Part shown: positions 1,072 to 31,100 of the stretch, piece by piece
Layout: every line of letters begins with the position of its first letter
Position numbering within the stretch: the first letter of the stretch is position 1
From: Gammaproteobacteria bacterium
GTDB lineage: Bacteria > Pseudomonadota > Gammaproteobacteria > Poriferisulfidales > Poriferisulfidaceae
Direction: 5' to 3'
Assembly: GCA_026713705.1 (NCBI GenBank)
Contig: JAPONY010000018.1
Coordinates: 1 to 33,529, forward strand
Length of the DNA: 33,529 bases
Program-made: the position numbers and the translations under genes
The notes under the pieces: model-generated
What the model was told of the DNA's origin: nothing
What the model saw: only the letters and a program-made list of their open reading frames with translations
Databases searched by the model: none

Positions 1072-1842
1072 TTATTCGTCCTGTCCTGAATCTCCGGGAT
1101 TTTGCTCCACGATTCCGACCACAAACTCCCGCGCCCGGTCCGCCAGATGACGGCGATCTAGGTTCCCCGGGTCGATTGCCGGGCCGATGAATACTTCCGC
1201 CTGGATCGACTTGCACCCGAGAATCTCCAGGATGCTGGCGGCCAAAGTTTGCTGATCCACGTAGGGCACCTTCGGGTGCACACCTTCCGGGTGCGGATAA
1301 CGCAATGCGACTGGCTGCACATGCATTTCGCTTTCGATCGCCGCCGCAAAAAGGCGAGGATGAAAAGGAAGCACGGTGTGACCCTTCCCAGTCGTTCCCT
1401 CAGGAAAAACCGCAACGCTTTGCTGCCGCTTGAACGCTTTACGGATCCCTTCGATGCTGCGTCGTGCTGCTCCCTCGCCTCCCCGCTCGATGAACAAGGT
1501 CCCGCCTGCCCGGGCCAAGCGGGAAATCAGCGGCCACTGGGCGACTTCCGCCTTGCTTAGAAACACCACGGGCATGGCCGAGCCCAACACCAGAATATCC
1601 AGCCACGAGATATGGTTGCACACCACCAGGCACGGCGCTTCGGCTGGCTCGCCGGTTATGGCTACCTTGATGTTCAGGCAGGCCAATACGCGCCTGAACC
1701 ATTCCCGGTTCTTCTCCTGTGCCTCAGGATCCGGGGGGTTGGATTTAAGTGCACGGAGATGCTTCGCGTTTCCCTCTACAAGCCCCCGTCCGATGAGGTA
1801 CAGCAACCTCGGAAGCCGCCATAAACCGCGTATCAATTTCAC
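1072..1842 (-). CDS. plsC: 1-acyl-sn-glycerol-3-phosphate acyltransferase (PlsC family)
   Basis: 256 residues with the acyltransferase signature: the HX4D motif in NHISWLD (His77, Asp82), an FIER block near 117-120 and the FPEGTT motif at about 146-151. A hydrophobic N-terminal segment ([15 protein letters not shown]) fits a membrane anchor. The family acylates lysophosphatidic acid to phosphatidic acid at the inner membrane; some members instead acylate other lysolipids such as lyso-ornithine lipid, so substrate is by family only. The GTG start at 1842 overlaps the stop of the upstream DUF255 gene (GTGA, 4 bases), indicating translational coupling. The assignment to the LPLAT superfamily is secure; the symbol is less so. 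Confidence 0.88.
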
Positions 1843-3857
1843 GAGGCCTGGACTCTTTCTCTAAAGGCATCAAAAGACCGGATCGGCTCTTCGCAAGTAG
1901 GCCCGACACAGACATAGGCCACCGCCTCGCCCTGTGCGGGCTTGTCCGACAGTGCCGGCGGGAGATTTTCCGCTTCTTCGGGGATGGCATAGCTGTCTGC
2001 ACGGAGGCTGCCGTGTCGCGCCGTGGATTGCCAGCGCTCCAATTCCGGCCCGCTGCCGCGCAGGATAATTTGCGGAGGAGGCTGTTCCACCGCGAGCCGG
2101 GCCTCCATGAACCGGGCGTGTTCCTGCGGCGCGTGCACGATGGCGCCTTGTGTGTTCGCCAAAGTCCGTTCCGCCAATTCCACCCAATCGCCCCGCGCGA
2201 GCAGGTGCCCGATCTGGGTCAGCCCCTCGCAGGCAACCGCGCAACCGGACGGTGCGACATCATCGGCCAGAAGCCGCGGGCGAACCAGCAGTTCCTCATG
2301 ATCGTGCGACGTGAAGAACAGCCCTCCCTCAGGATCCGCGAACTGTTCGGCGATTACTTCGGCCAGTTGCTCGGCGAATTTCAGGTCCTCGCTGTTCCAG
2401 CGGCTCTGAAGCAACAAAAGCGCCGCCTCCAGCATGAACGCATAGTCGTCCAGATACGCGTTCAGGTGAGCCGTTCCCTGGCTGAAGCTTGCCCGCAGTC
2501 GCTGGCCATCCCAAAGCCGGTCCCGAACGAAATCGAATGCCGCCTCTGCGTGGCGGAGCCAGTCCGGCTCGTCCAGCAGGCGCGAGGCCAGAACCAGGCC
2601 TCGGATCATCAGGCCGTTCCAACTGGTCAGCATCTTGTCGTCCAGCCCCGGCCGGATGCGGGCCGAGCGGGCTTCGAACAGGCGCTGCAGATCCTGGTCG
2701 AACACGCCCTGGAGCTCTTCCATCGGCTGCTTGGTGTGCGCCGCGGCTTCCAGCATGGTTCGAAACCCGTGCAGGTGCCAACGGCCCTCGAAATTAGCCG
2801 GGCGGTCCAACCCGAATCGGGATGCAAATGCCGGATAGTGCTCTTCCGGGATCAGCGCCTGCACCTCATCCGGCGTCCACACGTAAAACTTGCCCTCTTC
2901 CCCTTCGGAGTCGGCATCCAGGCTGGAGTAGAAGCCACCGGACTCATCTTGAAGCTCGCGGGTGACGAACGAGACGATGCCCTGTGCCGCGATCCGCAAC
3001 GGCAAAGACTCGGTGCGCACCCAGGCCTCCGCGTAAAGCGGCAGCAGGAGAGCCTGGTCGTACAGCATCTTCTCGAAGTGGGGAATCATCCAGTGCGCGT
3101 CAACCGAATACCGGTAGAAGCCGCCGCCGACATGATCCTGGATTCCACCCTCGGACATGCACGACAAGGTATGCGTCGCCATGTGTTGCGCCTGTGGGTT
3201 TTCCTGTTGCTGCAACCACTGCAACTGGGTCGGACGCGCAAATTTCGGAGCGCCGCCGAATCCTCCGTCCTGCGCATCGAACGATCGCGCCAAACCCTCG
3301 ATGACATCCGCCTCGAGTCCTTCCGGCCAAGGGGTTGCCTGGGGCGACTGGTGGATTTGCCGTAATGCCACGCATACCGATTCATTTTGCTGGGCCAGTT
3401 CTCCAGCATGCTCGCTGTACCACTCCGCGACCCGCTCCAGTATCTGGCTGAACGCCGGCAGCCCGTGGCGAGGCTCCGGCGGAAAGTAGGTGCCGCCGAA
3501 AAATGGGACCCGCTTGTCCGGCGTGAGGAACAGGGTCAGCGGCCAGCCGCCGCCGCGCTGGGTCAGCAGCATTTGCGCCGTTTGGTACAACTTGTCCAGG
3601 TCCGGACGTTCTTCACGGTCCACCTTGATGTTGACGTACAGGCGGTTCATCAACTCTGCAGTCGCCGAGTCTTCAAAGGACTCGTGTGCCATCACATGGC
3701 ACCAGTGGCAGGCGGCATAGCCGATTGACAGCAGGATCGGACGGCCGCTTTCGTTTGCTTCGCGCAGCGCCTCCTCGTCCCACGGATACCAGTCCACCGG
3801 ATTGTCCGCATGCTGGCGCAGGTAGGGACTGGAAGCTTCGGCGAGACGGTTTGGCAT
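1839..3857 (-). CDS. DUF255 thioredoxin-fold protein, YyaL/SSP411 family
   Basis: 672 residues from the ATG at 3857. The N-terminal thioredoxin-like domain has the family hallmarks: [21 protein letters not shown] at the start, CHWC at 50-53, [16 protein letters not shown] and FGGTYFPP. The rest resembles the (alpha/alpha) barrel of N-acylglucosamine 2-epimerase-like proteins, as in YyaL and mammalian spermatogenesis-associated protein 20. The biochemical role of the family is not established. The frame is open to a TTG at 3878, but a TATAAT at 3880-3885 on this strand puts transcription start at or inside that extension, and the ATG at 3857 begins exactly where family homology begins. The stop overlaps the acyltransferase start by 4 bases. 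Confidence 0.9.
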
Positions 3858-3879
3858 GACGAACAGGATCTTCCTCAAA

Positions 3880-4003: not shown

Positions 4004-5323
4004 ATGACCAATTCTCGTTCAAATGTCCCCAACGGCTGCGTGTTTCGTGACCCCGCATTTATGGCGAATCGGGATGCCCCAATTCACCGTTGGGTTCCCT
4101 GGGTTGCCGGATACTCCAAGCACTTTGTCGAGGATGCGATCAATCGTCATGCGCCAGAGCCTGGCGTAGTGCTTGATCCATTCGCTGGAGTTGGCACCAC
4201 CCTAGTGGAAGCCGACCATGCAGGACATGAAGCGATTGGTTTCGAGATCAACCCATATGCCGCATTTGCTTCAGAAGCAAAACTAAAAGCCCATCGGGTC
4301 AATCTAGGTCTCCTTCAAGACTCCGTAGAACGCTTCAGCGTGTTCATGGAAAAAGGCGTGAAGGAAGGAATCAGGCCGAAAACAACGCCGCCGACTGCAT
4401 TCCGCACACGAGCACCGTTCTACAGTCCAAAAGTTGAACAGAAAGTATTGCTCGCCTTGGATTTCATCGCCCAGCAAGAACTCCGGATTGCTAATATTTA
4501 TCGCTTGGCATTCGCCGCAACGATGGTCACATATTCAAACTATTCCTATGAGCCGAGCTTAGGGCGGAAAGCGACCGTGGGGCGACCCAATGTCGATGAC
4601 TACGATGTGGCCGAAGCAGTATCAGATAAGATTCTTCAAATGGCGAACGATGCCGCTTGGTATCGAGAAACCCGCAGTAAACGCAAGCGAAAAGACGGGC
4701 GGATTTTCACTCAGTCTTTTTTCGACGGCTACTCAAAAATAAAGGAGAGCAGCGTAGATCTCCTTATTACATCTCCGCCATATCTGAACAATTACCACTA
4801 CAACCGAAATACTCGCCCACATTTATATTGGTTGGGCTTCTGCTCCACCCCAAATGACATGAAGTATTTGGAGAATCTCAACTTTGGGACCTATTGGCAG
4901 AATGCCCGGGACTGTGATCAAATCGAACTTGACCCCTCCATAAAAGACAGAGCTATCCGAAAAACAATCGCTGAGGTTCGTCGGAAAAATCCTGACAAGG
5001 GGGTTTACGGAGGAAAGGGCTGGGCAAACTATGCAACTCATTATCTCAACGACTGCGTTCGTTTCGCTAAAGGTGCTGCATGGTGTCTTCGTCCGGGATC
5101 TACCGCCCTAGTCGTTATTGGTAATTCCGTCTTGCAGGGGGTCCCCGTTCCGACGGATCAATTCCTCGCCAAAATTGCTGAATCACATGGTTTCAAAGTT
5201 ATAGATATCCATATTCCTCGCGATACACGAGTCGGTAGCAGTATTCTCAATTCGAGCGTACGCGCCAATAAAACGAACAAAGTTTCACTCTACGAAGCAA
5301 TTGTTGAACTGCGGTGCACCTGA
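4004..5323 (+). CDS. DNA amino-methyltransferase of a Type II restriction-modification pair
   Basis: 439 residues with AdoMet-dependent DNA methyltransferase motifs: motif I LDPFAGVGTT at 57-66, a following acidic position in GFEIN (79-83), and catalytic motif IV TSPPY at 256-260. SPPY is typical of N4-cytosine enzymes and of some N6-adenine enzymes, and no C5-cytosine PCQ motif is seen. Motif I lies about 190 residues before motif IV, so the recognition region is probably between them, as in the alpha-type order. The stop (TGA, 5321-5323) overlaps the ATG of the adjacent Eco29kI-like nuclease (TGATG), so the two are translationally coupled with the protective enzyme first. The gene is clearly more AT-rich than the core genes, suggesting transfer. 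Specificity cannot be read from sequence. Confidence 0.88.
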   Translation: MTNSRSNVPNGCVFRDPAFMANRDAPIHRWVPWVAGYSKHFVEDAINRHAPEPGVVLDPFAGVGTTLVEADHAGHEAIGFEINPYAAFASEAKLKAHRVNLGLLQDSVERFSVFMEKGVKEGIRPKTTPPTAFRTRAPFYSPKVEQKVLLALDFIAQQELRIANIYRLAFAATMVTYSNYSYEPSLGRKATVGRPNVDDYDVAEAVSDKILQMANDAAWYRETRSKRKRKDGRIFTQSFFDGYSKIKESSVDLLITSPPYLNNYHYNRNTRPHLYWLGFCSTPNDMKYLENLNFGTYWQNARDCDQIELDPSIKDRAIRKTIAEVRRKNPDKGVYGGKGWANYATHYLNDCVRFAKGAAWCLRPGSTALVVIGNSVLQGVPVPTDQFLAKIAESHGFKVIDIHIPRDTRVGSSILNSSVRANKTNKVSLYEAIVELRCT

Positions 5324-5916
5324 TGCCATACCTTTGGGACCCGTTAACCTTTGACAACCTCATGGCGGGAACTGTTCTGCAGTTTGAGCGGCAGGAGCAG
5401 AAGCCGCTACATGGTCTTTCAGGAGTTGAAGGGTCTGGAGTTTATGCTCTTTACTACAAGGGAAAGATGGCCGAATACAAGCCTATCGCGGGCACATGCC
5501 GCCCCATATATGTAGGCAAAGCGGTGCCCCCAGGTGCGAGAAAAGGTAGCGCCAAACCAAACCTTGACTATCCAGCATTGCAGACAAGACTCAATGAACA
5601 CATCCGGTCCATTGAGCATGCAAAAAATCTCAGTGTCGAGCATTTTTCATGCCGCGTTCTACCCGTGGTCCTGAACTTCATCGTGTTCTCCGAACAAGCG
5701 TTAATACAACAATACAAGCCCGTCTGGAACAGTTGTCTAGATGGTTTTGGGAAACATCCCCCCGGTAAGAAACGGAAAACAGGAAGTCGAAGTTGGTGGG
5801 ACACGCTTCATCCTGGAAGGCCTTGGGCAGAAAAAGAAACGGAGGATAAGACACCCCAAGAGGCTAGCCAGAAGGTCAAGAGTTTCCTGCGTGGAAATGA
5901 AAAAACATCTAATTGA
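5323..5916 (+). CDS. Eco29kI-like GIY-YIG restriction endonuclease
   Basis: 197 residues from the ATG at 5323. The GIY-YIG core is visible: GVYALYY (Tyr41), PIYVGKA (Tyr63, Lys66), a TRLNEH helix (Arg89, His93), SEQALIQQYKPVWN (Glu124, Asn136), and the conserved tail GFGKHPPGKKR...SWWDTLHPGRPWA of the Eco29kI family. Characterised members (Eco29kI, NgoMIII) cut CCGCGG; whether this one does is inference. A GTG at 5314 is an alternative start, but the ATG overlapping the methyltransferase stop (TGATG) is the better coupled start. It is followed by a 9-bp-stem hairpin, so the pair forms a two-gene unit. The C-terminus is lysine-rich and AT-rich like its partner gene. Confidence 0.9.
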   Translation: MPYLWDPLTFDNLMAGTVLQFERQEQKPLHGLSGVEGSGVYALYYKGKMAEYKPIAGTCRPIYVGKAVPPGARKGSAKPNLDYPALQTRLNEHIRSIEHAKNLSVEHFSCRVLPVVLNFIVFSEQALIQQYKPVWNSCLDGFGKHPPGKKRKTGSRSWWDTLHPGRPWAEKETEDKTPQEASQKVKSFLRGNEKTSN

Positions 5917-8936: not shown

Positions 8937-9320
8937 TCAGTGCAGGGAATGGGGGGTGGACAGAGTAAACGCGGGGATTTCGGCGTCGAAGCAAGTGCCG
9001 TCGTCACCCAGCATTTGGTAAGACCCGTGCATGGAACCCACCGGGGTCTGCAGGACTGTGCCGGAGGTGTAGCGGAAGGTTTCGCCCGGAGCCAGGTACG
9101 GCTGTTGCCCGACAACGCCCTCGCCATGCACTTCCTGGCGGTTCTCGGCACCATCGAGAATGATCCAGTGCCGGCTGACCAGACGCGCCGGCAGGCTTCC
9201 CGTGTTGGTGATGGTGATGGTGTAGGCGAAGACGAAACGGCTGTCGTCCGGCTCGGACTGCTCCGGTAGAAACTGGGTCTCTACTTGAACATCAACATTG
9301 TAATCCTGTGCGGAAGACAT
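8937..9320 (-). CDS. apaG: ApaG protein (DUF525)
   Basis: 127 residues of the ApaG fibronectin-III-like fold, with FVFAYTITITNTG, the SRHWIILDG strand, VVGQQPYLAPGE and PVGSMHGSYQM. ApaG has been associated with Co2+/Mg2+ efflux in Salmonella, but its biochemical role is unclear. In most relatives it directly follows rsmA. Here about 5.5 kb of accessory DNA separates them, and a TATAAT at 9353-9358 could give apaG-apaH its own promoter. Confidence 0.95.
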   Translation of the reverse strand: MSSAQDYNVDVQVETQFLPEQSEPDDSRFVFAYTITITNTGSLPARLVSRHWIILDGAENRQEVHGEGVVGQQPYLAPGETFRYTSGTVLQTPVGSMHGSYQMLGDDGTCFDAEIPAFTLSTPHSLH

Positions 9321-9352
9321 ACGGGTGGGGAAGTGTTCTAATTACGGTGCGG

Positions 9353-9358
9353 ATTATA
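9353..9358 (-). promoter_or_regulatory. Putative -10 of an apaG-apaH promoter
   Basis: Reading the minus strand, a perfect TATAAT lies 33 bases upstream of the apaG ATG. The -35 region is weak (CTGTGT at 16-base spacing). A local promoter is plausible because the accessory island separates apaG from its usual operon. Confidence 0.4.
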
Positions 9359-9450
9359 CCGGGTGAAGGGATCAACACAGTGCCAAGGCTCTCTAAAGCA
9401 ACCAGAATCTTTCCGTGTCGGAACCGAAGCGATCCGACACCGAGACCCCA

Positions 9451-9759
9451 TCAGCCGAGCGCGTCGAGCCCCTTCTGATCAACGAGGTTGAGCAATTTGA
9501 GAGAGGGGCCGTTGGGTTGTTTTTTACCCTGTTCCCATTTTTGCACGGTGGACGGGCTGGCATTCAAATAAGCGGCAAAGACCGCCTGGCTGGCCTTGCA
9601 ACGCAACCGCAATTTTTTGATTTGGCTGGCACTGTAGATTTTGACAGGCGACAAACACAATGCATCGAACTCACGCATCGTGGTCGCATTCATCGCGCCC
9701 GCCTTGTGCAAGCCTTTCGCTGTCTCGTGAACAGCTTCCAAAATTGGTTTACTCGCCAT
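9451..9759 (-). CDS. HigA-type antitoxin with helix-turn-helix domain
   Basis: 102 residues. The C-terminal half is a Xre-family helix-turn-helix (about residues 46-92: SASQIKKLRLRC ... AVFAAYLNASPSTVQKWEQG) followed by the PNGPSLKLLNL tail typical of antitoxins paired with RelE/HigB toxins. It should neutralise the preceding toxin and repress the operon. The start overlaps the toxin's 3' end by 11 bases, so toxin comes first, the HigBA order. Its likely operator is the inverted repeat at 10143-10165. A partial second copy of this gene lies at 10166-10262. The module looks intact. Confidence 0.87.
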   Translation of the reverse strand: MASKPILEAVHETAKGLHKAGAMNATTMREFDALCLSPVKIYSASQIKKLRLRCKASQAVFAAYLNASPSTVQKWEQGKKQPNGPSLKLLNLVDQKGLDALG

Positions 9760-10129
9760 CTTTCTTTACCTCCATCAGTTCTTTCGCATCAAGTGCTTTT
9801 TCAATTTGCGTCTCGTCATAACCCAGCAGGTCCTCTGCTAGCCGCCGCAATGCTCTGAGTTCAGAATCAGAGATGGTCGCGCGGGCTTTCTTGGCGAAAC
9901 CGTAAACGAAGAACATGCGATTGTGATCCCGTTTGAACACGAGCAAGATTCGCACACCGCCACTTTTGCCCCTGCCGGACAACGCGACTCGTTTCTTGAA
10001 CACATGTCCGCCAAGGTCGGCATCGACCAGACCACGTCGCACTTCCTCGACCGCCGTGAGAAGACTCGCATCAGTTAGCCTTTCCTTGCTTGCCCAACGA
10101 TGAATCCACCGAGTCTTGAAAATACGCAT
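9749..10129 (-). CDS. RelE/HigB-family toxin
   Basis: 126 residues from the ATG at 10129 (MRIFKTRWIHRWASKE). The pattern (TDASLLTAVEEVRRGLVDADLGG, then GKSGGVRILLVF, then MFFVYGFAKKARATI) matches the RelE-like toxin family of PF06296 type, which cleave mRNA at the ribosome or are predicted to. The frame is open to 10225, but those first residues are the decayed antitoxin remnant and a -10 box lies inside it. The ATG at 10141 would precede the expected transcript start, so 10129 is preferred. The leader would then be only about 5-7 bases with no Shine-Dalgarno. Confidence 0.87.
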   Translation of the reverse strand: MRIFKTRWIHRWASKERLTDASLLTAVEEVRRGLVDADLGGHVFKKRVALSGRGKSGGVRILLVFKRDHNRMFFVYGFAKKARATISDSELRALRRLAEDLLGYDETQIEKALDAKELMEVKKDGE

Positions 10130-10142
10130 GGCATGACACATA

Positions 10143-10165
10143 AGTATAGCATTTAGTGCCATACT
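10143..10165. promoter_or_regulatory. Inverted-repeat operator for the antitoxin
   Basis: AGTATAGCA (10143-10151) and TGCCATACT (10157-10165) are inverted copies matching at 8 of 9 positions, separated by TTTAG. The 23-bp dyad covers the -10 box and most of the spacer, where a helix-turn-helix antitoxin dimer would block RNA polymerase. Autoregulation is inferred from the family. Confidence 0.65.
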
Positions 10166-10172
10166 ATTGCAA
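10143..10172 (-). promoter_or_regulatory. Promoter of the toxin-antitoxin operon
   Basis: On the minus strand TTGCAA (10172-10167) and TATACT (10148-10143) are separated by 18 bases. The -10 ends 13 bases before the toxin ATG, predicting a near-leaderless mRNA. The -35 sits at the edge of the decayed antitoxin fragment. The operator below overlaps the -10 and spacer. Confidence 0.65.
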
Positions 10173-10262
10173 GAATTGAGAGAGGGTCCACCGGGCCGGT
10201 TTTTCCTCTGTTCCCACTTCTGCACGGCTGATGGAAGATTATGCTGCCCTGCCTTGAAGTCC
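10166..10262 (-). pseudogene. Remnant 3' half of a second HigA-type antitoxin gene
   Basis: Minus-strand translation from about 10262 gives REDFKAGQHNLPSAVQKWEQ followed by RKNRPGGPSLN. This aligns without gaps to the intact antitoxin (VFAAYLNASPSTVQKWEQ, GKKQPNGPSLK). The DNA match is also visible around the VQKWEQ and GPSL codons. There is no start codon or first helix, and the frame runs on into the toxin promoter region. The upstream end lies within about 12 bases of the helicase gene stop (10274), as if that gene's insertion cut off the rest. Confidence 0.7.
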
Positions 10263-10273
10263 TCTCGAAAAAC

Positions 10274-13200
10274 TTATTCTTCCAACGGTATTGCCTCGGG
10301 CAAGGCGCAAAGCGCGTTTACTAGCCGCACCTGCTCCGCCGTCGCGCAATTCGCATGCAGAAGCTGCGGAGACGCAAAAACCAGACTCAACCCTTGGCCT
10401 CGGCTGACCGCAACGTTGAGTCGTTCGCGCGAAAGCAGGAAACTCAATCCGCGGGAGGTCTCCTCCGCCGTCGAGGCGGTCATTGAGACCAAAGCGACCG
10501 GCGCTTCCTGCCCCTGAAACTTGTCGACAGTGCCAACGCGAATGCCAGGCAAGGCATCGGAAAGCGCGTTCACTTGCGCATTGTAGGGCGCAACCACGAT
10601 GATATCGCTCTCGCGGAACGGACGTCGGTTTCCGTTTCGATCGGTCCAAGCGCCCGCCAACAAGCGACCGATCGTTTCGCGCACGGCCTCCACTTCCTCG
10701 GGGCTAATCTGCGCGCGTCCCTCGTGGACGACCGGCACACGCCAAGCGCCCGCGGAAGGCAAGCCCGAGACCTCGACAGACTGAAGCTCGGTAGATGGGT
10801 GGTTGCGCAGTCGCCCCTCATAGAATTGTGCTGAAATGTAGGAACAAAGGTCGGGATGCATTCTCCGGGTTTCCGGCAGGAAGATGCCGTGCTCTGGATC
10901 AACGTTCCTTCCCTCTCCCAGCATCCAGTCGAGGCAGGAAAGATTGGCCGGATGCGGGTGTGCGCCCTGAGTGACCTGCGGCAATTGGCGGGGATCGCCG
11001 ATCAGGACGAGATTAGCAGCCGCATTCGACATCGCAATCAGGTTGGCCAACGGAACCTGCCCGGCCTCATCGATGAAAAGGCAATCGAAAGCGCTCCGAT
11101 GCTCATCCCGCGAGAAAAGCCAAGCCGTCCCGCCAACGACCTGGGCGGAGTGGAGCGCGGCGGCTTGATTGCTTGTCACGCAGGAAACCGCTTCCTTGTA
11201 TTCCTGCGAGAGGTCGCCCTGACTCGAAACCTTGTGAGCAATTTTCACATCGCCGACGGCCAGGCCGGCATCCTCTTCGCACAACGCGCGGGCGCATTCC
11301 GCCAAAACGTTGCGGATCGCCTCATGGCTGTTCGACGACACCGCGATGCGCCTGCCGTCCCGAACCAGCGCGAGAATCGCGCGTGCCGCCACATAGGTCT
11401 TGCCGGTGCCGGGTGGCCCCTGAACCGGGAGGACGGACCGGTCTAGGATCCGTGTCGCCTTGATCAGGCCCTGAAGCGCCCCGACACTCTCGTCCAGGGG
11501 AAGCGGCGACGGGCCGCGGAAGCGGGGGGGATTGCGCGACAGGACATCTTCGGCCGCCTGATTGCGGCGGGAACCGCATTGGTCCTCCGCGACCCTCCGG
11601 ATCGCCGCAGGAATCGGCCCCGGATTCAGGGCGAATTCGGGGAGGATATCCATCCGGTCGGGGAGCGGCGCGCCACGGCTGGGATTCAGGCAGATTTTCC
11701 GACGGTGCCGGTCAAGTTCGTTGATCTTGGCTGAGGCAAAGCCATCCTGTCTCGCGAACAGGGCGGATTTCCCCGCCCGCAGTTTCGTTTCCTGCGGCGG
11801 ATAGCGGTACTCGCGCCCGCCCGCGCCCGCCCTGCCGGATGCGACCAAGCCGGCCAGACACTCCATGTCGTCGCAAAGTTCCTCGAAGTCCTTCTCCGCG
11901 GCATCGAACACGGCCCATGCCTGAGGTTTCTTCTCTCGCCAGTGGAACACGCCTAGGTCGTAGAGCAGGCGACGACGCTCCTCCGGCAGGCCGGAAGCGG
12001 CGAGAAGGTCCGCAAGATTTTCGTTTTCTTCCTGCTCGCCTGCCGACCTGGGTGTCTCCCCTTCCCCGGCTTCGGGCCAGGAACCTTCCGCCCGGATCCC
12101 GAGCAGCCAGTCGCGCAGTTTCGCAAGCGATATGCAGTCGAGGCGGTTGTAGTCCTCGATTGCCGCGAGAACCTCGGCCTCGCCCGTCTCTCGCCACTTC
12201 TCGTAGGCCACGATCGAGTCCCCGGCGGACGCGACCGCCCCGTCACGGTCCAGATCGTAAAAAATCTCCAGATCCTTGAGCGAATAGGATGGTTCGGACG
12301 CGAAGATGCCTCCCCGTACGACGGCGTAGAGGTCGACAAAGCGCCGCTCCCGCAGCCAGCAATCCAGTTGCACCTCGCCCAGGCCGTGCCGCATGGCCAG
12401 CTGGCGCAACGCGGTGCGTTCGTAGGGCGCATAGTGATAGACATGTGCGCCGGGATGGCGCGCGAAGTGCTCCTCGAACCGGCGCAACAGGGATTCCAGT
12501 GCCTTCTTCTCTTCCACGCGGTCATGCGCCCAAAGGGCGGCGAATGCCCGTCCGTCCCAGATGCCGTGGAGATACTCAAGACCGTCCAGACCCGCCTCGG
12601 CGTAGTACGGATCCCCTTCGATGTCGTAGAAAAGGTCTCCGGGATCAGGTCGCGGCATCAGATCAAAGCCTTTCCCGAGGGCGGAAGGCCGCAGCTTGAA
12701 CGAAGGCTCGCCGGTCTTGCGGGCGTGTTGGAGCTGGGCTTGTTCACGCAATTTCTCCGCCGTCTCGTCGGCAAGCTCGGGAACCTCGCCTTCATGTCGG
12801 GCAAGCGCCTCCATCGTTCGGATCCCGGTCGCCTCCAGCTTGCCAGCTTGGCTTCTCCTGATTCCGGCGATCTGGTAAAGGCTGTCCGTCTTCCTCCACT
12901 CCTCGGCACAATGTTCCCGCCAGCGGCAGAGATCACAGAACGGACACGGAACCGGGCGAGTGGGCGGGGGCGCCTGAACAAACGCCTCAAAGCGGGTGCG
13001 CACGAAGCGTGCGTAGTCCGAATACTCCGCCAGGCGAAGGGTGGTCCGCTCGCCTGAGCCGAGCTGGATATGGGCACATTCCGGCGCATGGCCCTGAACT
13101 TCGGAGAGAAGGTCGGAGTAAAGCGCCAACTGGAGCACATGATCCGGAGCGGGCTTGCGTTTCAGCTTTGTATCCGTAACCTCGTAGGAAAACGACCCGA

Positions 13201-13573
13201 GTTTGGACGGCACCGGCACGCGCTCCAGGAAATCCGCATAGCCGCCCCACACCCCGCCTGCGAGCGCGCCCTGATAAACGATGTCCGGGCCGGCCGCCAA
13301 AGCTTTGCACGTGGCATCCACCGATTCCTCAAGGGAGACATTCTCTGTCTCGACACGCACGACTGTCTTTCCCTCGGACTCAAGCCGCGAAAGATATTCG
13401 GCCTCATGCCGCTGCCCGCGCTCCTGCAGCAACTCAGTGCCTTCACTGTCTTCGACCGGCTCAAGATCCTCTCCCTGGAGATAGGCGAGATCGAGTCTTG
13501 ACGCATGCGGGCAGGCGGTGAACCGCTTGAGATCAGAAGCCGACAGGCGGATTCCTTCGCCATCCCTTTTCAT
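10274..13573 (-). CDS. RecB-like nuclease / RNase H-like / SF1 helicase fusion (TM0106 family)
   Basis: 1,099 residues with three modules. (1) Residues 1-225: a PD-(D/E)XK RecB-type nuclease with GYADFLE (Asp114), EVTDTKLKRK (Asp134, Lys136) and Q148..Y152, plus cysteines at 21, 210, 213, 216 and 222 that could hold an Fe-S cluster. (2) About 310-490: a ribonuclease H-like domain with FYDIEGDP (Asp317, Glu319), RFVDLY (Asp415) and YNRLDC (Asp479). (3) About 690-1080: an SF1 helicase with Walker A GPPGTGKT (719-726), FIDEAGQ (Asp835, Glu836), GDPRQLPQVTQG and LSRERLNVAVSRG. All catalytic motifs look intact. The ATG at 13573 overlaps, as ATGA, the end of an rsmA 3' fragment. Cellular role is unproven; DNA repair or defence is inferred from the domains and the accessory location. 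Confidence 0.88.
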   Translation of the reverse strand: MKRDGEGIRLSASDLKRFTACPHASRLDLAYLQGEDLEPVEDSEGTELLQERGQRHEAEYLSRLESEGKTVVRVETENVSLEESVDATCKALAAGPDIVYQGALAGGVWGGYADFLERVPVPSKLGSFSYEVTDTKLKRKPAPDHVLQLALYSDLLSEVQGHAPECAHIQLGSGERTTLRLAEYSDYARFVRTRFEAFVQAPPPTRPVPCPFCDLCRWREHCAEEWRKTDSLYQIAGIRRSQAGKLEATGIRTMEALARHEGEVPELADETAEKLREQAQLQHARKTGEPSFKLRPSALGKGFDLMPRPDPGDLFYDIEGDPYYAEAGLDGLEYLHGIWDGRAFAALWAHDRVEEKKALESLLRRFEEHFARHPGAHVYHYAPYERTALRQLAMRHGLGEVQLDCWLRERRFVDLYAVVRGGIFASEPSYSLKDLEIFYDLDRDGAVASAGDSIVAYEKWRETGEAEVLAAIEDYNRLDCISLAKLRDWLLGIRAEGSWPEAGEGETPRSAGEQEENENLADLLAASGLPEERRRLLYDLGVFHWREKKPQAWAVFDAAEKDFEELCDDMECLAGLVASGRAGAGGREYRYPPQETKLRAGKSALFARQDGFASAKINELDRHRRKICLNPSRGAPLPDRMDILPEFALNPGPIPAAIRRVAEDQCGSRRNQAAEDVLSRNPPRFRGPSPLPLDESVGALQGLIKATRILDRSVLPVQGPPGTGKTYVAARAILALVRDGRRIAVSSNSHEAIRNVLAECARALCEEDAGLAVGDVKIAHKVSSQGDLSQEYKEAVSCVTSNQAAALHSAQVVGGTAWLFSRDEHRSAFDCLFIDEAGQVPLANLIAMSNAAANLVLIGDPRQLPQVTQGAHPHPANLSCLDWMLGEGRNVDPEHGIFLPETRRMHPDLCSYISAQFYEGRLRNHPSTELQSVEVSGLPSAGAWRVPVVHEGRAQISPEEVEAVRETIGRLLAGAWTDRNGNRRPFRESDIIVVAPYNAQVNALSDALPGIRVGTVDKFQGQEAPVALVSMTASTAEETSRGLSFLLSRERLNVAVSRGQGLSLVFASPQLLHANCATAEQVRLVNALCALPEAIPLEE

Positions 13574-13588
13574 CGCGCCATCTCAAAA

Positions 13589-13637
13589 GCCTGAAACAAT
13601 CGCACGAATTCCTCGTTCGAAAGTTCCTCGGCCCTTC
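13589..13637 (-). repeat. Duplicate of the rsmA 3' end
   Basis: These 49 bases match rsmA positions 14939-14987 at 46 of 49 positions, in the same orientation. The copy still encodes NEEFVRLFQA and continues to FEMAR and a TGA that overlaps the ATG of the helicase gene. The two copies are direct repeats 1,350 bases apart and flank the DUF4268 gene. They look like a 3'-end target duplication or the scar of recombination between two rsmA alleles. Confidence 0.85.
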
Positions 13638-13658
13638 CTTCACAGTTCGCCACGAACC

Positions 13659-14843
13659 TTATGCACCAAGATCTTCGACGATGCGCTTGATTCGATGACG
13701 GAACACGTTCACAAAACGATTGGATATGTCCGCGAGAAAGTCCTTGATCTCGGTTCGGTAGGTTGGATCCATCAAACCAGGGAATTTTTTGCTTGAACCA
13801 ATCCAGTGTCTTCCATCTTCTGAAGTCCACTGCACAGGAATGCCAAGTTCCTCTTCAATCCGATCCTTGTCTTCTGATAGCTGCTCAAAAATGCGATTCC
13901 CGAAATTGCCGCGGTAAGCAGTCAAGTACGCACCCACACGGCATTCTTTCTGTACAAAGTAAAGCGCAATCCAAATATCCGAATGCGGCATCCTGAAAAA
14001 TACATTTCCAGATTTTGTCAGGTTCGGATGCGGCTGATCCGGATCATCCAACTCAAGGTCGTCGATTAACTCTTTCCAGAAGTCCTGGTAGAACCGTGCG
14101 GAATCACTCAATTCGGATTCGAGTCCCTCTTCATCTTCATCAGCCACGAGACCCTCGGACTCAAGACTGACGACCGTGCGCTTGACAATAACTGATTGGG
14201 CGAGAATGCGCGGCTGGACGAGACGCCGCCCTTCAGGCATTTCGTACATCGCGACCTCGACCAAGCCGAACGTGAAATGGAGCGTGCCCTGCCGCTGCAG
14301 AAAATCCGTGATTGCGGTCACACCCTCGCGGATGCCGTCGCCGCAGATCAGCAACAGAAACCGGCCATAGCGAAGGCTACGGGAAACCTCATCAACGAAT
14401 TCGGCTTCGGTCAAACTGTCGGAGGTTTCGGCAGCAGCGACAATATCGAATAATGCGTTACCGCTACGCCCGGTACGCCGCGACACTTCCCGCTGCAAGT
14501 CTGCATAAGTCAAACGACTCAATTCCTTCGCATAGTCGAGAATTTGTCCGATCACCGCTCGTCTCGCCTCCGGGTTCCGCCAGAGCTTCGTTTCAAGGAT
14601 AATCAGTCTGCCTTTCGGCGTCGCCAGCAACGCATCCATAGGACCGGCTGGCGTGTTCAACTCCTTGCAAATCGGTATGGCGGGGGCAAATGTCCGGTCG
14701 ATCTCATTAATCGGAAGCGCTTCGGGGTGCTCGAACAGCAGGTCCTGAAGCCACCCCTCATCGTATTCGGCTGAAGTCGGTTGCAGGCTTTCCGTAGAAC
14801 CGTCGGGGCCTACGATAATTGGCATAGCGTCTCGCGAGGACAT
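13659..14843 (-). CDS. PD-(D/E)XK-like protein with DUF4268-type C-terminus
   Basis: 394 residues. The N-terminal half resembles a PD-(D/E)XK nuclease core: PMDALLATPKGRLIILETKLW gives Asp70, Glu84 and Lys86, followed by Gln100 and Tyr104 in a helix. The C-terminal part (IWIALYFVQ ... YRGNFGNRIFEQLSEDKDRIEEELG ... VQW) resembles DUF4268, often found in accessory and defence-linked proteins. A very acidic linker (residues about 232-248) separates them. The start at 14843 has AAGGTG 5 bases upstream. It lies between rsmA and the rsmA duplicate, so it is the most recently inserted piece. Nuclease activity is inferred from the motif only. Confidence 0.72.
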   Translation of the reverse strand: MSSRDAMPIIVGPDGSTESLQPTSAEYDEGWLQDLLFEHPEALPINEIDRTFAPAIPICKELNTPAGPMDALLATPKGRLIILETKLWRNPEARRAVIGQILDYAKELSRLTYADLQREVSRRTGRSGNALFDIVAAAETSDSLTEAEFVDEVSRSLRYGRFLLLICGDGIREGVTAITDFLQRQGTLHFTFGLVEVAMYEMPEGRRLVQPRILAQSVIVKRTVVSLESEGLVADEDEEGLESELSDSARFYQDFWKELIDDLELDDPDQPHPNLTKSGNVFFRMPHSDIWIALYFVQKECRVGAYLTAYRGNFGNRIFEQLSEDKDRIEEELGIPVQWTSEDGRHWIGSSKKFPGLMDPTYRTEIKDFLADISNRFVNVFRHRIKRIVEDLGA

Positions 14844-14886
14844 TTTTCACCTTCGGGTCATTCGAATGCTGGTGCAGTGGGGCATT

Positions 14887-15690
14887 TTACGGCGAGGCTT
14901 CAGCGGGCGGGGCGGCGGCTTGCCCTTTCTCCCGAATCGCCTGAAACAACCGCACGAATTCCTCGTTCAAAAGTGCCTCGGCCCTTCGCCCGGAATCGAT
15001 CTCTGTCTCCGCCCACACCGAATCCGGGATTTCCGGCAGGTTGTTGCGCAATGTCTTCCGCCGCGATGCGAATGCCTGCCAAACTAGGCGCATGAAATCC
15101 GTCCGTTCCTCCTCCCTTATGGGGAGAGACTCCTTGGGTAGAAGTCGCACCACGGTGGAGACAACCTGGGGAGGCGGCTCGAAGCATTCCGGCTCGACGT
15201 CCAGCAACTGTTCGACCTGCATCAACAACTGAACGGCCACCGACAACTGCCCACGGGACGAATCACCTGGCGGAGCAGCAAGCCGCTGTGCGACTTCGCG
15301 TTGCACCATCACGGTCAGATCCGCCAAATGTGTCCGCAACTCCATCCAACGCTGCAACAATGCGGTCGCCACGTTGTACGGCAGGTTGCCCGCAAGTCGC
15401 AAGCCTTTCGGATACGCCGACAGATCCTCGTGCAGCGCATCCGCGCAGCGGATCGTAACTCCGGGATTATCGGCAAACTGGTGTTCCAGGTATTCGGCGA
15501 GAACCGGATCCTTCTCGACAGCGATGAGGTGTCGTGTCTGCCCTGCCAGCGGGAGCGTCAACGCGCCCCGGCCAGGACCGATCTCGACCAAGGTGTCGCT
15601 CGGCCCGATCGCGGCGGCGATCTCCTCGATCTTTGCCGGATCGGAAAGGAAATGCTGCCCCAGGCGTTTTCGCGGCGGCGGCAGGGCCAT
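14887..15690 (-). CDS. rsmA: 16S rRNA (adenine1518-N6/adenine1519-N6)-dimethyltransferase
   Basis: 267 residues matching KsgA/RsmA: RKRLGQHFL at the N-terminus, the AdoMet motif VEIGPGRGALT (35-45), and catalytic NLPYN (102-106). It dimethylates two adjacent adenosines in the 3' terminal helix of 16S rRNA. The C-terminal NEEFVRLFQA segment is duplicated at 13589-13637. After it, this copy ends in an Ala/Pro-rich tail (IREKGQAAAPPAEASP), unlike the FEMAR ending of the duplicate. So one of the two ends has been replaced or has drifted. It starts 3 bases after the PNPOx-like gene. Confidence 0.97.
   Translation of the reverse strand: MALPPPRKRLGQHFLSDPAKIEEIAAAIGPSDTLVEIGPGRGALTLPLAGQTRHLIAVEKDPVLAEYLEHQFADNPGVTIRCADALHEDLSAYPKGLRLAGNLPYNVATALLQRWMELRTHLADLTVMVQREVAQRLAAPPGDSSRGQLSVAVQLLMQVEQLLDVEPECFEPPPQVVSTVVRLLPKESLPIREEERTDFMRLVWQAFASRRKTLRNNLPEIPDSVWAETEIDSGRRAEALLNEEFVRLFQAIREKGQAAAPPAEASP
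14939..14987 (-). repeat. rsmA 3' end, in-gene copy of the 49-bp direct repeat
   Basis: This is the rsmA copy of the 49-bp direct repeat (46/49 identical to 13589-13637). Two of the three differences change an amino acid (Ala to Glu, Leu to Ser) and one is synonymous. Confidence 0.85.
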
Positions 15691-28185: not shown

Positions 28186-31100
28186 TCATTCGATAACCAA
28201 TTCAGGGAGAGCCCGCACGATCTTCATCGTCTCCAAGCTGACCGCAACGACTCGCAGGAACAGGTTGAGTGGATAACGTGGGTCGCCCACCGTCTCGATC
28301 GCGTAGCGGTTGGCATCGCTGACGATGCCGCTGGCCTTGTCGGTCTGGACACACTGGCGTTCCATGACCCATTGCAACGCAGGCTTGCCGTTCACGACAT
28401 AGTCCCACGCCCCCTCGGGGATGTCGCGAATGGTGACGTGCGCGTTGTAGATGACCGTCGATCGGTCTTTGTTCTTTCCTGACCCCGGGTGCCGCATTTT
28501 CGTGACCCGGTAGGCCGCCTCCAAGTTGGCCTCGATCTGTTTGGCATCAATTTCGAGGGTGAGGGCATGAGGTTCAACCGACTCATAGCCGACATGCAAC
28601 TCGCCGAGCCGTTTGCCCGCGTCACGAAAAGCACGATAGTCCTCTACCCGATTTATACAAGGAATTCGCGGTAGTTCTTTGGTGAGGTTTGCGGCGTACC
28701 GGCTACGGTAATCTTCGGAATGCAACAGACCGTAAATGTAATGGAAGATGTCTTCCTTAGTAATGGCTTCATCTGGATGGGCTGACTGAAAGCGCTCCAA
28801 GCCATAATCCGTAATGGCTTCACGACGACAATTGCTATTGTCGTCAGAACCCGTGAACAAAGAGTCTTCTGTTGGTGCAGTTTTCTCGTAGAGCCAGAAA
28901 GGAAAACACTGGCCCGTATCTACCGTATGTAGGTTTGGCAGTGCGTCCACCATCAAGACTGAAAAACCCGAGCGCCCCCCTTTCCCTGTGACCGCAATCG
29001 CGCGGTTAGGCAATTCACTATCGGGGAAGATTCTGGGCATTTGGTAGACCATTTCATTTAAACGTCGACTATAAAACTGCCACTGCTTGGTAAAAGGGCG
29101 GTAAACACAAGGTACGAACTGCCCGTCACTCAAGTTTAGGCTTTTTTGCTTCTGCAAATCTTGTTTAAGGGCTCTAGTCCAACTGATTTTCTTGGGATCA
29201 GTCGAAACAAAATCATCTACTTTCGGCAAAGTCGTTCGACTATTGCGGGCGTTATCCTCCACATCTATCCATCTCTCAAGTTCGGCATTGTAGAAATCGA
29301 TCGTCGCCCTGATATTTTCGGCCAGTGCTGATTTTGAGGGATTGATACACCAAGGATCCCGATTGGTGACCACACCTAGGGAATAGTTGCCAAACAAAAC
29401 CTGCCTGGTCTTGTTTTTCTTGTCGCCAATCTTCGGATATGCATCGAAGCCCGGATCACGATGATCCAACCAGTCCCCATGCTCATCAGGCATAATTTTG
29501 GTCCACCCGTCCACTTCCCCAATCCCACGGATACTTCCAAAATGTTCGATGATGCCGAGTTTTTGCTTCCGATCCAGATAATCGCCAATGTCGTGGAAGA
29601 AGATATGCCCCTGCTTCTCCGCATCCGGATTCTTGACGAAGACGGTGATGGCGACTCCTGTCATCGTTCCTTGGCCAAACACATTTTGGCCCTCACCCGC
29701 CAAACCACCGGACAACATGTTCTTGCGAATGTCACCTCGGAGGTGAAAGACATGAATGCTGGCGAACTCCTCCGCCAAACATTTGCGTAATCCATCGGCA
29801 AAGGAGCGTTCTATCCATGCACTGCCGGAAACATAAGCCATCACCCCGGCTTCACCCAAGCGGTCGCTACCCCAGCGGATCGCCCGAATGTAGCTGTCAT
29901 AGAGGTTCTGTAGCAGGCCCGCCTCAGAGCGTTCCGCATAAGTCGATCGGATCCGTTGATCGAGTCGTGAATATACAACGTTTTTCGCATTATCGTCTTC
30001 TTTTTTTTGGCCCGCCGAATACGGCGGATTGCCCATGATCACCCGAATGTCTGTTTCTTTCTGGCGCTCCCGTCGGTCGGTATTGTCTTTCATATAGAAA
30101 GACAGTTCATCGTCGCCTTCATGCAAGGCGAAAGTGTCAGTCAAACAAATTCCCTCGTATGGCAAATATTCATCCTTCTTAGCCTCCGCATGAAACACCG
30201 TCTCTATGTTGATCGCCGCAATGTAATAGGCAAGCAGGATAATGTCGTTAGCATGAATTTCCTCCCGGTATTTGCGCTCCAGATCCTCAGGAGCAATCAA
30301 ACCGGACTGTAGTAGGCGGGTGATGAAGGTGCCTGTCCCGACGAAAGGGTCGAGGATATGGACGCCCTCGGAGCCAAGTGATTGCTTGAACTCAGCCCGC
30401 AAGACTTCATCCACCGAGCGGATGATGAAGTCCACGATTTCGACTGGCGTATAGACGATCCCGAGCATTTGCGTAGCACGTGGAAACGCGGTTCGAAAAA
30501 ACTTGTCATAGAGCTCGACGATCAGTTTCTGCCGGGCTTGTGGGTCGGTGACGCCGGACGCCCGTCTGCGCACAGAGGAGTAAAACCCTTCCAACTGCTT
30601 CGCCTCGCGCTCGACCTGCGCCTCATCAATTACCGAGAGCACCTCCGTCATCGCGGCCGAAACAGGATTCTGCTCCACAAAGGCATGATTCTCGAACAAG
30701 GCGTCAAACACGGGTCGGGTAATCAAATGCTGTGCCAGCATCTCGATGGCATCAGACTCTGTCACCGATTCGTTGAGATCATCGCGAACCTCCAGAAGAA
30801 AATCCTGAAAGAACTTGCTGGCATCACTTTCCGGCTGCGAAACAAGATCGGTAATCCGAGTTACATGCCGTTCTGCAATCTCGGCCACATCCTTCGCCCA
30901 ATCTTCCCAGTATTCGCGAGTCCCACATTTCTCGACGATCTTTGCCATGACGGCCCGTGAAAAATCGTCGATGATCAGCGGCAATATTTCTACCTCGTCT
31001 ATCCGTCCTCTGGTGTCGTCCCCTCCCCCGGAACCGATTTCTGAACGCTGGCGACGAGGCGGACTCGGCAAGTCTTCCACCCTCGCTGTTATTTTCTCAA

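Follow-up and report, generated by a model that had tools for sequence, protein, structure and literature searches.

Layered, probably defensive cargo at a core-flanked accessory site between rsmA and apaG in one gammaproteobacterial genus

The rsmA-apaG interval and its genes

The interval between the core genes rsmA (ksgA) and apaG is described here in a 33,529-nucleotide stretch of DNA (the window; contig JAPONY010000018.1, positions 1 to 33,529) from a Gammaproteobacteria bacterium of the Poriferisulfidaceae, where it holds a PD-(D/E)XK nuclease gene with a DUF4268 domain, a TM0106-family gene for a fused nuclease, RNase H-like and helicase protein, and a toxin-antitoxin pair. The window belongs to a draft assembly of 1.94 Mb that is 95.6% complete (GCA_026713705.1; G000 below). 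Profile searches recovered all the genes called in an earlier sequence-only reading of this DNA, at the same positions and on one strand. All four cargo genes are co-directional with lptD-surA-pdxA-(PNPOx-like)-rsmA on the minus strand, with apaG-apaH next. There are no integrase or transposase genes within the interval, and no RNA families were found in the window. The features of the site, in window coordinates, are:

9321-14886, minus strand: rsmA-apaG interval, four intact genes between core flanks
14887-15690, minus strand: rsmA (ksgA), left flank, with a C-terminal tail that varies among alleles (TIGR00755, 4.6e-67; comparison of congener tails)
14939-14987, minus strand: 49-nt direct repeat copy 1, within the present rsmA 3' end (46/49 against copy 2)
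13659-14843, minus strand: PD-(D/E)XK nuclease + DUF4268 gene, PADLOC PDC-S11-like, 394 aa, apparently a recent layer (PF14088, E 3e-9)
13589-13637, minus strand: 49-nt direct repeat copy 2, putative relic of an older rsmA tail once joined to the TM0106 gene (colinear with rsmA-TM0106 of G003)
10274-13573, minus strand: TM0106-family iron-sulphur (Fe-S) RecB nuclease + RNase H-like + superfamily 1B (SF1B) helicase gene, 1099 aa, old layer, with an ATGA in which its start codon and the stop of the old rsmA tail overlap (TIGR03491, 8e-77; PF13482, PF13086 and PF13087, i.e. RNase_H_2 and AAA_11/12)
10176-10234, minus strand: putative remnant of the 3' end of a diverged antitoxin gene, ahead of the toxin gene (59-nt repeat, 76%; frame-2 translation SAVQKWEQRKNRPGGPSLNSC)
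10143-10172, minus strand: promoter-like TTGCAA-18-TATACT with an overlapping near-palindrome, AGTATGGCA-CTAAA-TGCTATACT (promoter scan and sequence)
9749-10126, minus strand: RelE-family toxin gene (PF06296, E 1.1e-42)
9451-9759, minus strand: HTH_3 antitoxin gene, sharing 11 nt with the toxin gene (matches to HTH antitoxin families under curated cut-offs)
9353-9358, minus strand: TATAAT ahead of apaG, conserved in 6/6 genomes (sequence comparison)
8937-9320, minus strand: apaG, right flank (NF003967, 5e-51)

In the six genomes compared, every cargo gene sits upstream of the conserved TATAAT, and the site lies between the last needed codons of rsmA and the presumed apaG promoter. The PF06296 toxin gene and the HTH_3 antitoxin gene, with their short overlap, have the layout of a RelE-type type II pair, and the promoter-like site with its near-palindrome is likely the promoter/operator of that pair. 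The promoter scan found no such site before either nuclease gene, and both are probably expressed within the lptD-surA-pdxA-rsmA transcript. The suggestion that the cargo may use transcription of the lptD operon is plausible, the only promoter-like site being that before the toxin gene.

Alleles, layers and seams

The site was compared in the window genome and five congeners (G001-G005) on a tree rooted on G005, ((G000,G004),(G001,(G002,G003))). Three alleles are empty (G002, G004 and G005, with a rsmA-apaG spacing of 56-59 bp), one holds TM0106 only, one is scarred, and that of the window is three-layered. The TM0106 gene that stands alone in G003 is 80% identical to the window copy, and its start overlaps the rsmA stop in an ATGA (GCGATGAG). 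The scarred allele of G001 keeps the two ends of a deleted TM0106 gene, followed by a MntA-type nucleotidyltransferase, a truncated HepT-like frame and apaG; these remnants read as successive toxin-antitoxin replacement with scars. The truncated HepT frame of G001 (L035, 10740-11480) is fused in frame to the last 24 antitoxin codons. None of these genomes has a second TM0106 copy, and the rsmA tails of G004 and G002 are ordinary ones that bear no trace of the gene. Given the root on G005, the TM0106 gene was probably present in the ancestor of G000-G004 and lost without trace in G004 and G002, and such a clean loss, with the rsmA tail restored, is consistent with recombination involving an empty allele. 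Between the window and G003 the synonymous divergence (dS) of the TM0106 gene is 0.86 and its ratio of nonsynonymous to synonymous divergence (dN/dS) is 0.14, the values for rsmA being 0.88 and 0.12. The similar dS indicates that the gene has resided at the site about as long as the flank, and the dN/dS indicates purifying selection. With fixed core flanks, content that varies between species and no mobile-element genes, the interval has the attributes of a core-gene-flanked defence hotspot, and the alleles present it as a turnover hotspot within the genus.

Two seams, both additional to what the sequence-only reading had observed, mark the layers in the window. The segment at 14939-14987, roughly the final 50 nt of the conserved portion of rsmA, recurs at 13589-13637 with 46 of 49 positions identical, a match with a chance expectation of ~1e-15 by a simple binomial estimate, and there are exactly two copies in the genome. 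The DUF4268 gene occupies the stretch between the copies, whose start-to-start spacing is 1350 nt, in an A-h-S-h-B structure where h is 49 nt. Because copy 2 is colinear with the rsmA-TM0106 junction of G003, it represents the old tail, the DUF4268 gene having brought in the tail that rsmA has now. To yield this structure, a crossover in rsmA and one illegitimate join are enough. A second, older repeat of 59 nt (76%; 9497-9555 and 10176-10234) involves the 3' end of the antitoxin gene, and the diverged antitoxin tail appears to mark an earlier toxin-antitoxin layer. An integrative mobile element was considered and set aside, there being only the direct 49-nt repeat and no recombinase gene.

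The DUF4268 gene itself has a GC content of 0.53 and a third-position value (GC3) of 0.59, compared with 0.71-0.77 in the core genes listed; the toxin and antitoxin genes have GC3 values of 0.56 and 0.64. A search of 54 other genomes, among them the congeners, did not find the DUF4268 gene, and its protein's nearest relative (70%) is in a Rhodospirillaceae metagenome-assembled genome (MAG), with nucleotide similarity that stops at the gene limits. By composition and distribution the gene looks like a recent, foreign arrival. A phage origin was rejected, the protein having no match in 50,697 phage records.

The hotspot is confined to this genus. The rsmA-apaG gap is 4-59 bp in the empty alleles of the genus and in the order members tested, so that the view of the two genes as normally contiguous holds at these levels. 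For the class it holds only in part: among 48 loci sampled from other genera the gap is at most 255 bp in 11 and 0.5-4.2 kb in 8, and the stretch examined contained no apaG in the other 29. The long-gap loci inspected carry what, by their sequences alone, are metabolic or other ordinary genes, among them those for glucokinase-like, 6-phosphogluconolactonase-like, aminotransferase-like and universal-stress proteins. TIGR03491 was found in 12 of 274 class genomes, and among those with both positions listed there is no rsmA-adjacent copy elsewhere. A class-wide rsmA-apaG defence hotspot is therefore rejected, the genes elsewhere being adjacent, parted by metabolic genes or unlinked; the proposed accessory hotspot stands within the genus, where empty, partly filled and scarred alleles occur.

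The two nuclease proteins

Membership of the window helicase-nuclease in the TM0106 family follows from a TIGR03491 score of 259 bits over residues 11-490, the curated cut-off being 97.45. Across 16 relatives the nuclease residues D114, K136 and Q148, the RNase H carboxylates D317, E319, D404 and D479, the Walker A and B motifs and the motif VI arginine are invariant, and the nuclease residue D134 is kept in 15. The cysteines C21, C213, C216 and C222, which have the spacing of the AddB/Cas4 iron-sulphur nucleases, are kept in 14 of the 16 and lost jointly in two. In the Piscirickettsia (L136) and Acaryochloris (L137) plasmid relatives the four cysteines are gone together and the nuclease residues are kept. 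The helicase is of the SMUBP2/UPF1/Dna2 type. The window protein thus shares with its family the full nuclease, RNase H-like and helicase architecture, the Fe-S cysteines and the motifs. Relatives occur on 68 plasmids, 25 of them conjugative, and in 8 of 9 regions at >=47% identity a divergent WYL regulator gene lies upstream; other neighbours are McrBC, SIR2 + ATPase, HsdR, HEPN and DUF3883 proteins and DNA methyltransferases. The copy of the window lineage differs in having no WYL gene beside it and, as seen in G003, in a start that overlaps the rsmA stop. Assignment to Mokosh fails because the MkoA profile spans only the helicase part (residues 788-1065) and a phospholipase D (PLD)-nuclease domain was not found in the site proteins. 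Membership in Shango (SngABC) is likewise rejected, SngB being absent from G000, and a role as a Shango accessory is not borne out: the two are together in four Mesorhizobium loci only, and SngB (6/274) and TM0106 (12/274) occur in disjoint class genomes. A full-text search of open-access papers found none on the TM0106 protein.

The DUF4268 protein matches PF14088 at 37.4 bits (gathering cut-off 27 bits) and, with weak to moderate scores, five PADLOC PDC-S11 profiles, the best at 1.5e-13. D69, E83-x-K85 and Q99 are invariant in 47 homologues, and in an AlphaFold model (predicted local distance difference test, pLDDT, 89) residues 27-208 superpose on the NucS/EndoMS nuclease with a Z score of 9.8 and a root-mean-square deviation of 2.4 over 108 residues. 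Further fold matches are to PaqCI (Z 8.5), SduA (7.6), Hachiman (6.7) and McrC (6.5). The D...ExK...Q site and the conserved core of the predicted fold identify a PD-(D/E)XK nuclease; the NucS alignment is limited to the C-terminal nuclease domain of that enzyme (126-233), and no PDB sequence match was obtained. Type III secretion chaperones and YbjN match the C-terminal DUF4268 domain of the model at Z ~8, a likeness that may reflect only a common arrangement. As in PDC-S11/DUF4268 proteins, this domain is joined to an N-terminal PD-(D/E)XK domain in one stand-alone gene. DUF4268 is most often associated with DUF262/DUF1524 (GmrSD) proteins (PMC4619093); the present protein has DUF4268 only, with neither DUF262 nor DUF1524, and GmrSD type IV restriction was rejected. 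Nor is it Shedu by sequence, there being only the fold match and no SduA/DUF4263 match returned from Pfam or PADLOC. It resembles SduA in its likely manner of working, as a stand-alone PD-(D/E)XK nuclease with an extra domain, but its closest fold is that of NucS/EndoMS instead.

Elsewhere the DUF4268 gene lies in Mesorhizobium beside SngABC and TM0106, in a Saprospiraceae locus near GajA and directly before a TM0106 nuclease-RNase H half, and on a Rhizobium plasmid beside a Vsr/C5-methyltransferase/ATPase/Z1/PD-(D/E)XK cluster. In Mesorhizobium (L077, L085, L098 and L103) a conserved block has TM0106 divergent from SngABC and then the DUF4268 nuclease gene, with a MobA/MobL relaxase-helicase gene further downstream (SngABC and MobA were read in L077 only).

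Probably independent layers at a landing site

The full layered explanation, which we hold to be probable, is that the interval is a small core-flanked accessory site whose contents were acquired independently and are probably anti-phage. Before the congeners split, a TM0106-family gene would have joined the rsmA 3' end through the stop/start overlap; two lineages would later have lost it cleanly, and a third would have kept only its scars. Toxin-antitoxin genes would have entered on the apaG side and been partly replaced, leaving antitoxin tails behind, and recently, in the window lineage, the DUF4268 gene would have arrived with a replacement rsmA tail while the old 49-nt tail stayed before TM0106. 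Filling and emptying would proceed through recombination in the flanking housekeeping genes. The TM0106 protein, as a helicase-nuclease driven by ATP, would unwind foreign DNA and degrade it, and the DUF4268 protein would be a stand-alone nuclease of Shedu or type IV restriction enzyme kind, both presumably cutting invading DNA, and the toxin-antitoxin pair would act independently. Defence appears the likeliest role of each nuclease gene because of intact active sites, sporadic distribution, plasmid carriage and repeated defence neighbours, namely WYL regulators, McrBC, SIR2-ATPase, Shango and GajA. The designation of candidate defence genes is in this way supported one gene at a time, by family, active site and island context.

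Several points weigh against this explanation. The congener sample is five genomes only, and the DUF4268-gene seam is known from one MAG contig. Homologous recombination at the site is deduced from the clean losses and the repeat. The promoter scan returned one site, before the toxin gene, a number no greater than chance expectation and hence weak evidence. Several DUF4268-gene homologues lie among housekeeping genes, and in 80 DUF4268-gene loci whose neighbourhoods were surveyed PADLOC finds defence genes both beside the gene and 6.5 kb off, so that neighbourhood alone gives no proof of a defence role; PADLOC neighbour enrichment, which does not discriminate near from far, was dropped as an argument for the DUF4268 gene.

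Three other explanations have to be weighed against the layered one. It is very improbable that the two nucleases, possibly with the toxin-antitoxin pair, form one composite system in which one nuclease nicks or senses and the helicase-nuclease degrades. Their genes are adjacent and co-oriented in the window, flank Shango in the four Mesorhizobium loci and adjoin, as a TM0106 half, in a Saprospiraceae locus, but they differ in age and distribution, TM0106 being old and alone in G003 and the DUF4268 gene later, and they lie within 10 kb of each other in only 5 of the 80 loci, in two lineages, where the order of the genes differs and other complete systems intervene or adjoin. On these grounds the idea of a set acting together is not supported, and a composite system is rejected as the leading explanation: the two nuclease genes are neighbours, not one machine. 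Other defence genes are present in the five loci. The sequence-only reading would have been undone had the genes never co-occurred and the fusion been a housekeeping factor; instead they co-occur occasionally, and the fusion is sporadic and mobile (12/274; 68 plasmids). It is also unlikely that the genes serve DNA repair or stress responses and were retained to process replication forks, the site being a neutral safe harbour. The helicase type, the strong purifying selection and the DNA polymerases beside some plasmid copies would suit a repair role, but TM0106 is rare in the class, is absent or decayed in 4/6 congeners, and is found on conjugative plasmids, with restriction genes and other genes of defence as recurrent neighbours.

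The seam also admits the reading that a site-specific recombinase supplied in trans inserted the DUF4268 gene as a 1.35-kb unit at the rsmA 3' end, the 49-nt repeats being its attachment sites. The exact A-h-S-h-B structure and the 1350-bp unit are what such a unit would give, but we consider it quite unlikely: no integrase or terminal inverted repeat is present in or near the unit, both repeat copies, which have 3 differences in 49 nt, are plain rsmA coding sequence, similarity to the nearest homologue is limited to the gene, the adjacent TM0106 insertion has no such repeat, and the rsmA crossover with one illegitimate join produces an identical structure.

The layered site has known counterparts. 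At the core defense hotspots cDHS1 and cDHS2 of Pseudomonas aeruginosa, immune genes lie between fixed core genes (PMC10250203), with the same high turnover and, as here, without obviously belonging to one mobile element; in PA14, too, cDHS1 has a nuclease system, Shedu, next to Shango and a large multi-domain helicase. The rsmA site is however much smaller than cDHS1 (median 26 kb), has other flanks, and differs from both in consisting of single-gene layers set into a string of housekeeping genes, where scars of 3' ends can still be read. Recombination at the flanking core genes diversifies hotspots that lack mobile elements (PMC5635113), and the present site shares with them the absence of integrases and transposases and the clean empty and filled alleles; unlike them, its cargo brings a replacement 3' end for the flank and the old end is retained. 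The landing site is thus real, specific to the genus and flanked by core genes; it belongs to a known kind, and its layered cargo is probably defensive. More distinctive are the seam with its replaced tail and the coupling, through an ATGA, of rsmA to a helicase-nuclease that usually has a WYL partner.

Two further defence loci lie in the window. At 4004-5916 on the plus strand, 3 kb from apaG, a type II restriction-modification pair (N6_N4 methyltransferase + Eco29kI-type endonuclease, GC 0.49-0.50) forms a second defence insertion, between lgt and a DUF255/thioredoxin-like gene (1839-3878); in 4/4 sister genomes holding both, these two genes adjoin. The third defence locus within 29 kb, in a low-GC stretch at 28186-33084 on the minus strand, encodes a full-length, 1632-aa restriction-modification enzyme of type ISP.

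It is possible, if doubtful, that a normally WYL-partnered mobile helicase-nuclease was captured into lptD-surA-pdxA-rsmA through the ATGA as a constitutive single-gene defence, and that the rsmA 3' end then became a renewable seam at which later cargo was added with a replacement tail, allowing recombinase-free stacking of genes one by one. In its empty, single-layer, multi-layer and decayed alleles, this one short stretch shows how housekeeping genes can come to enclose a stack of single defence-type genes when no mobile element is obvious. Two concrete single-gene defence candidates with catalytic residues suited to mutation also emerge from it, the DUF4268 nuclease and the TM0106 helicase-nuclease, the latter of a family annotated on many plasmids.

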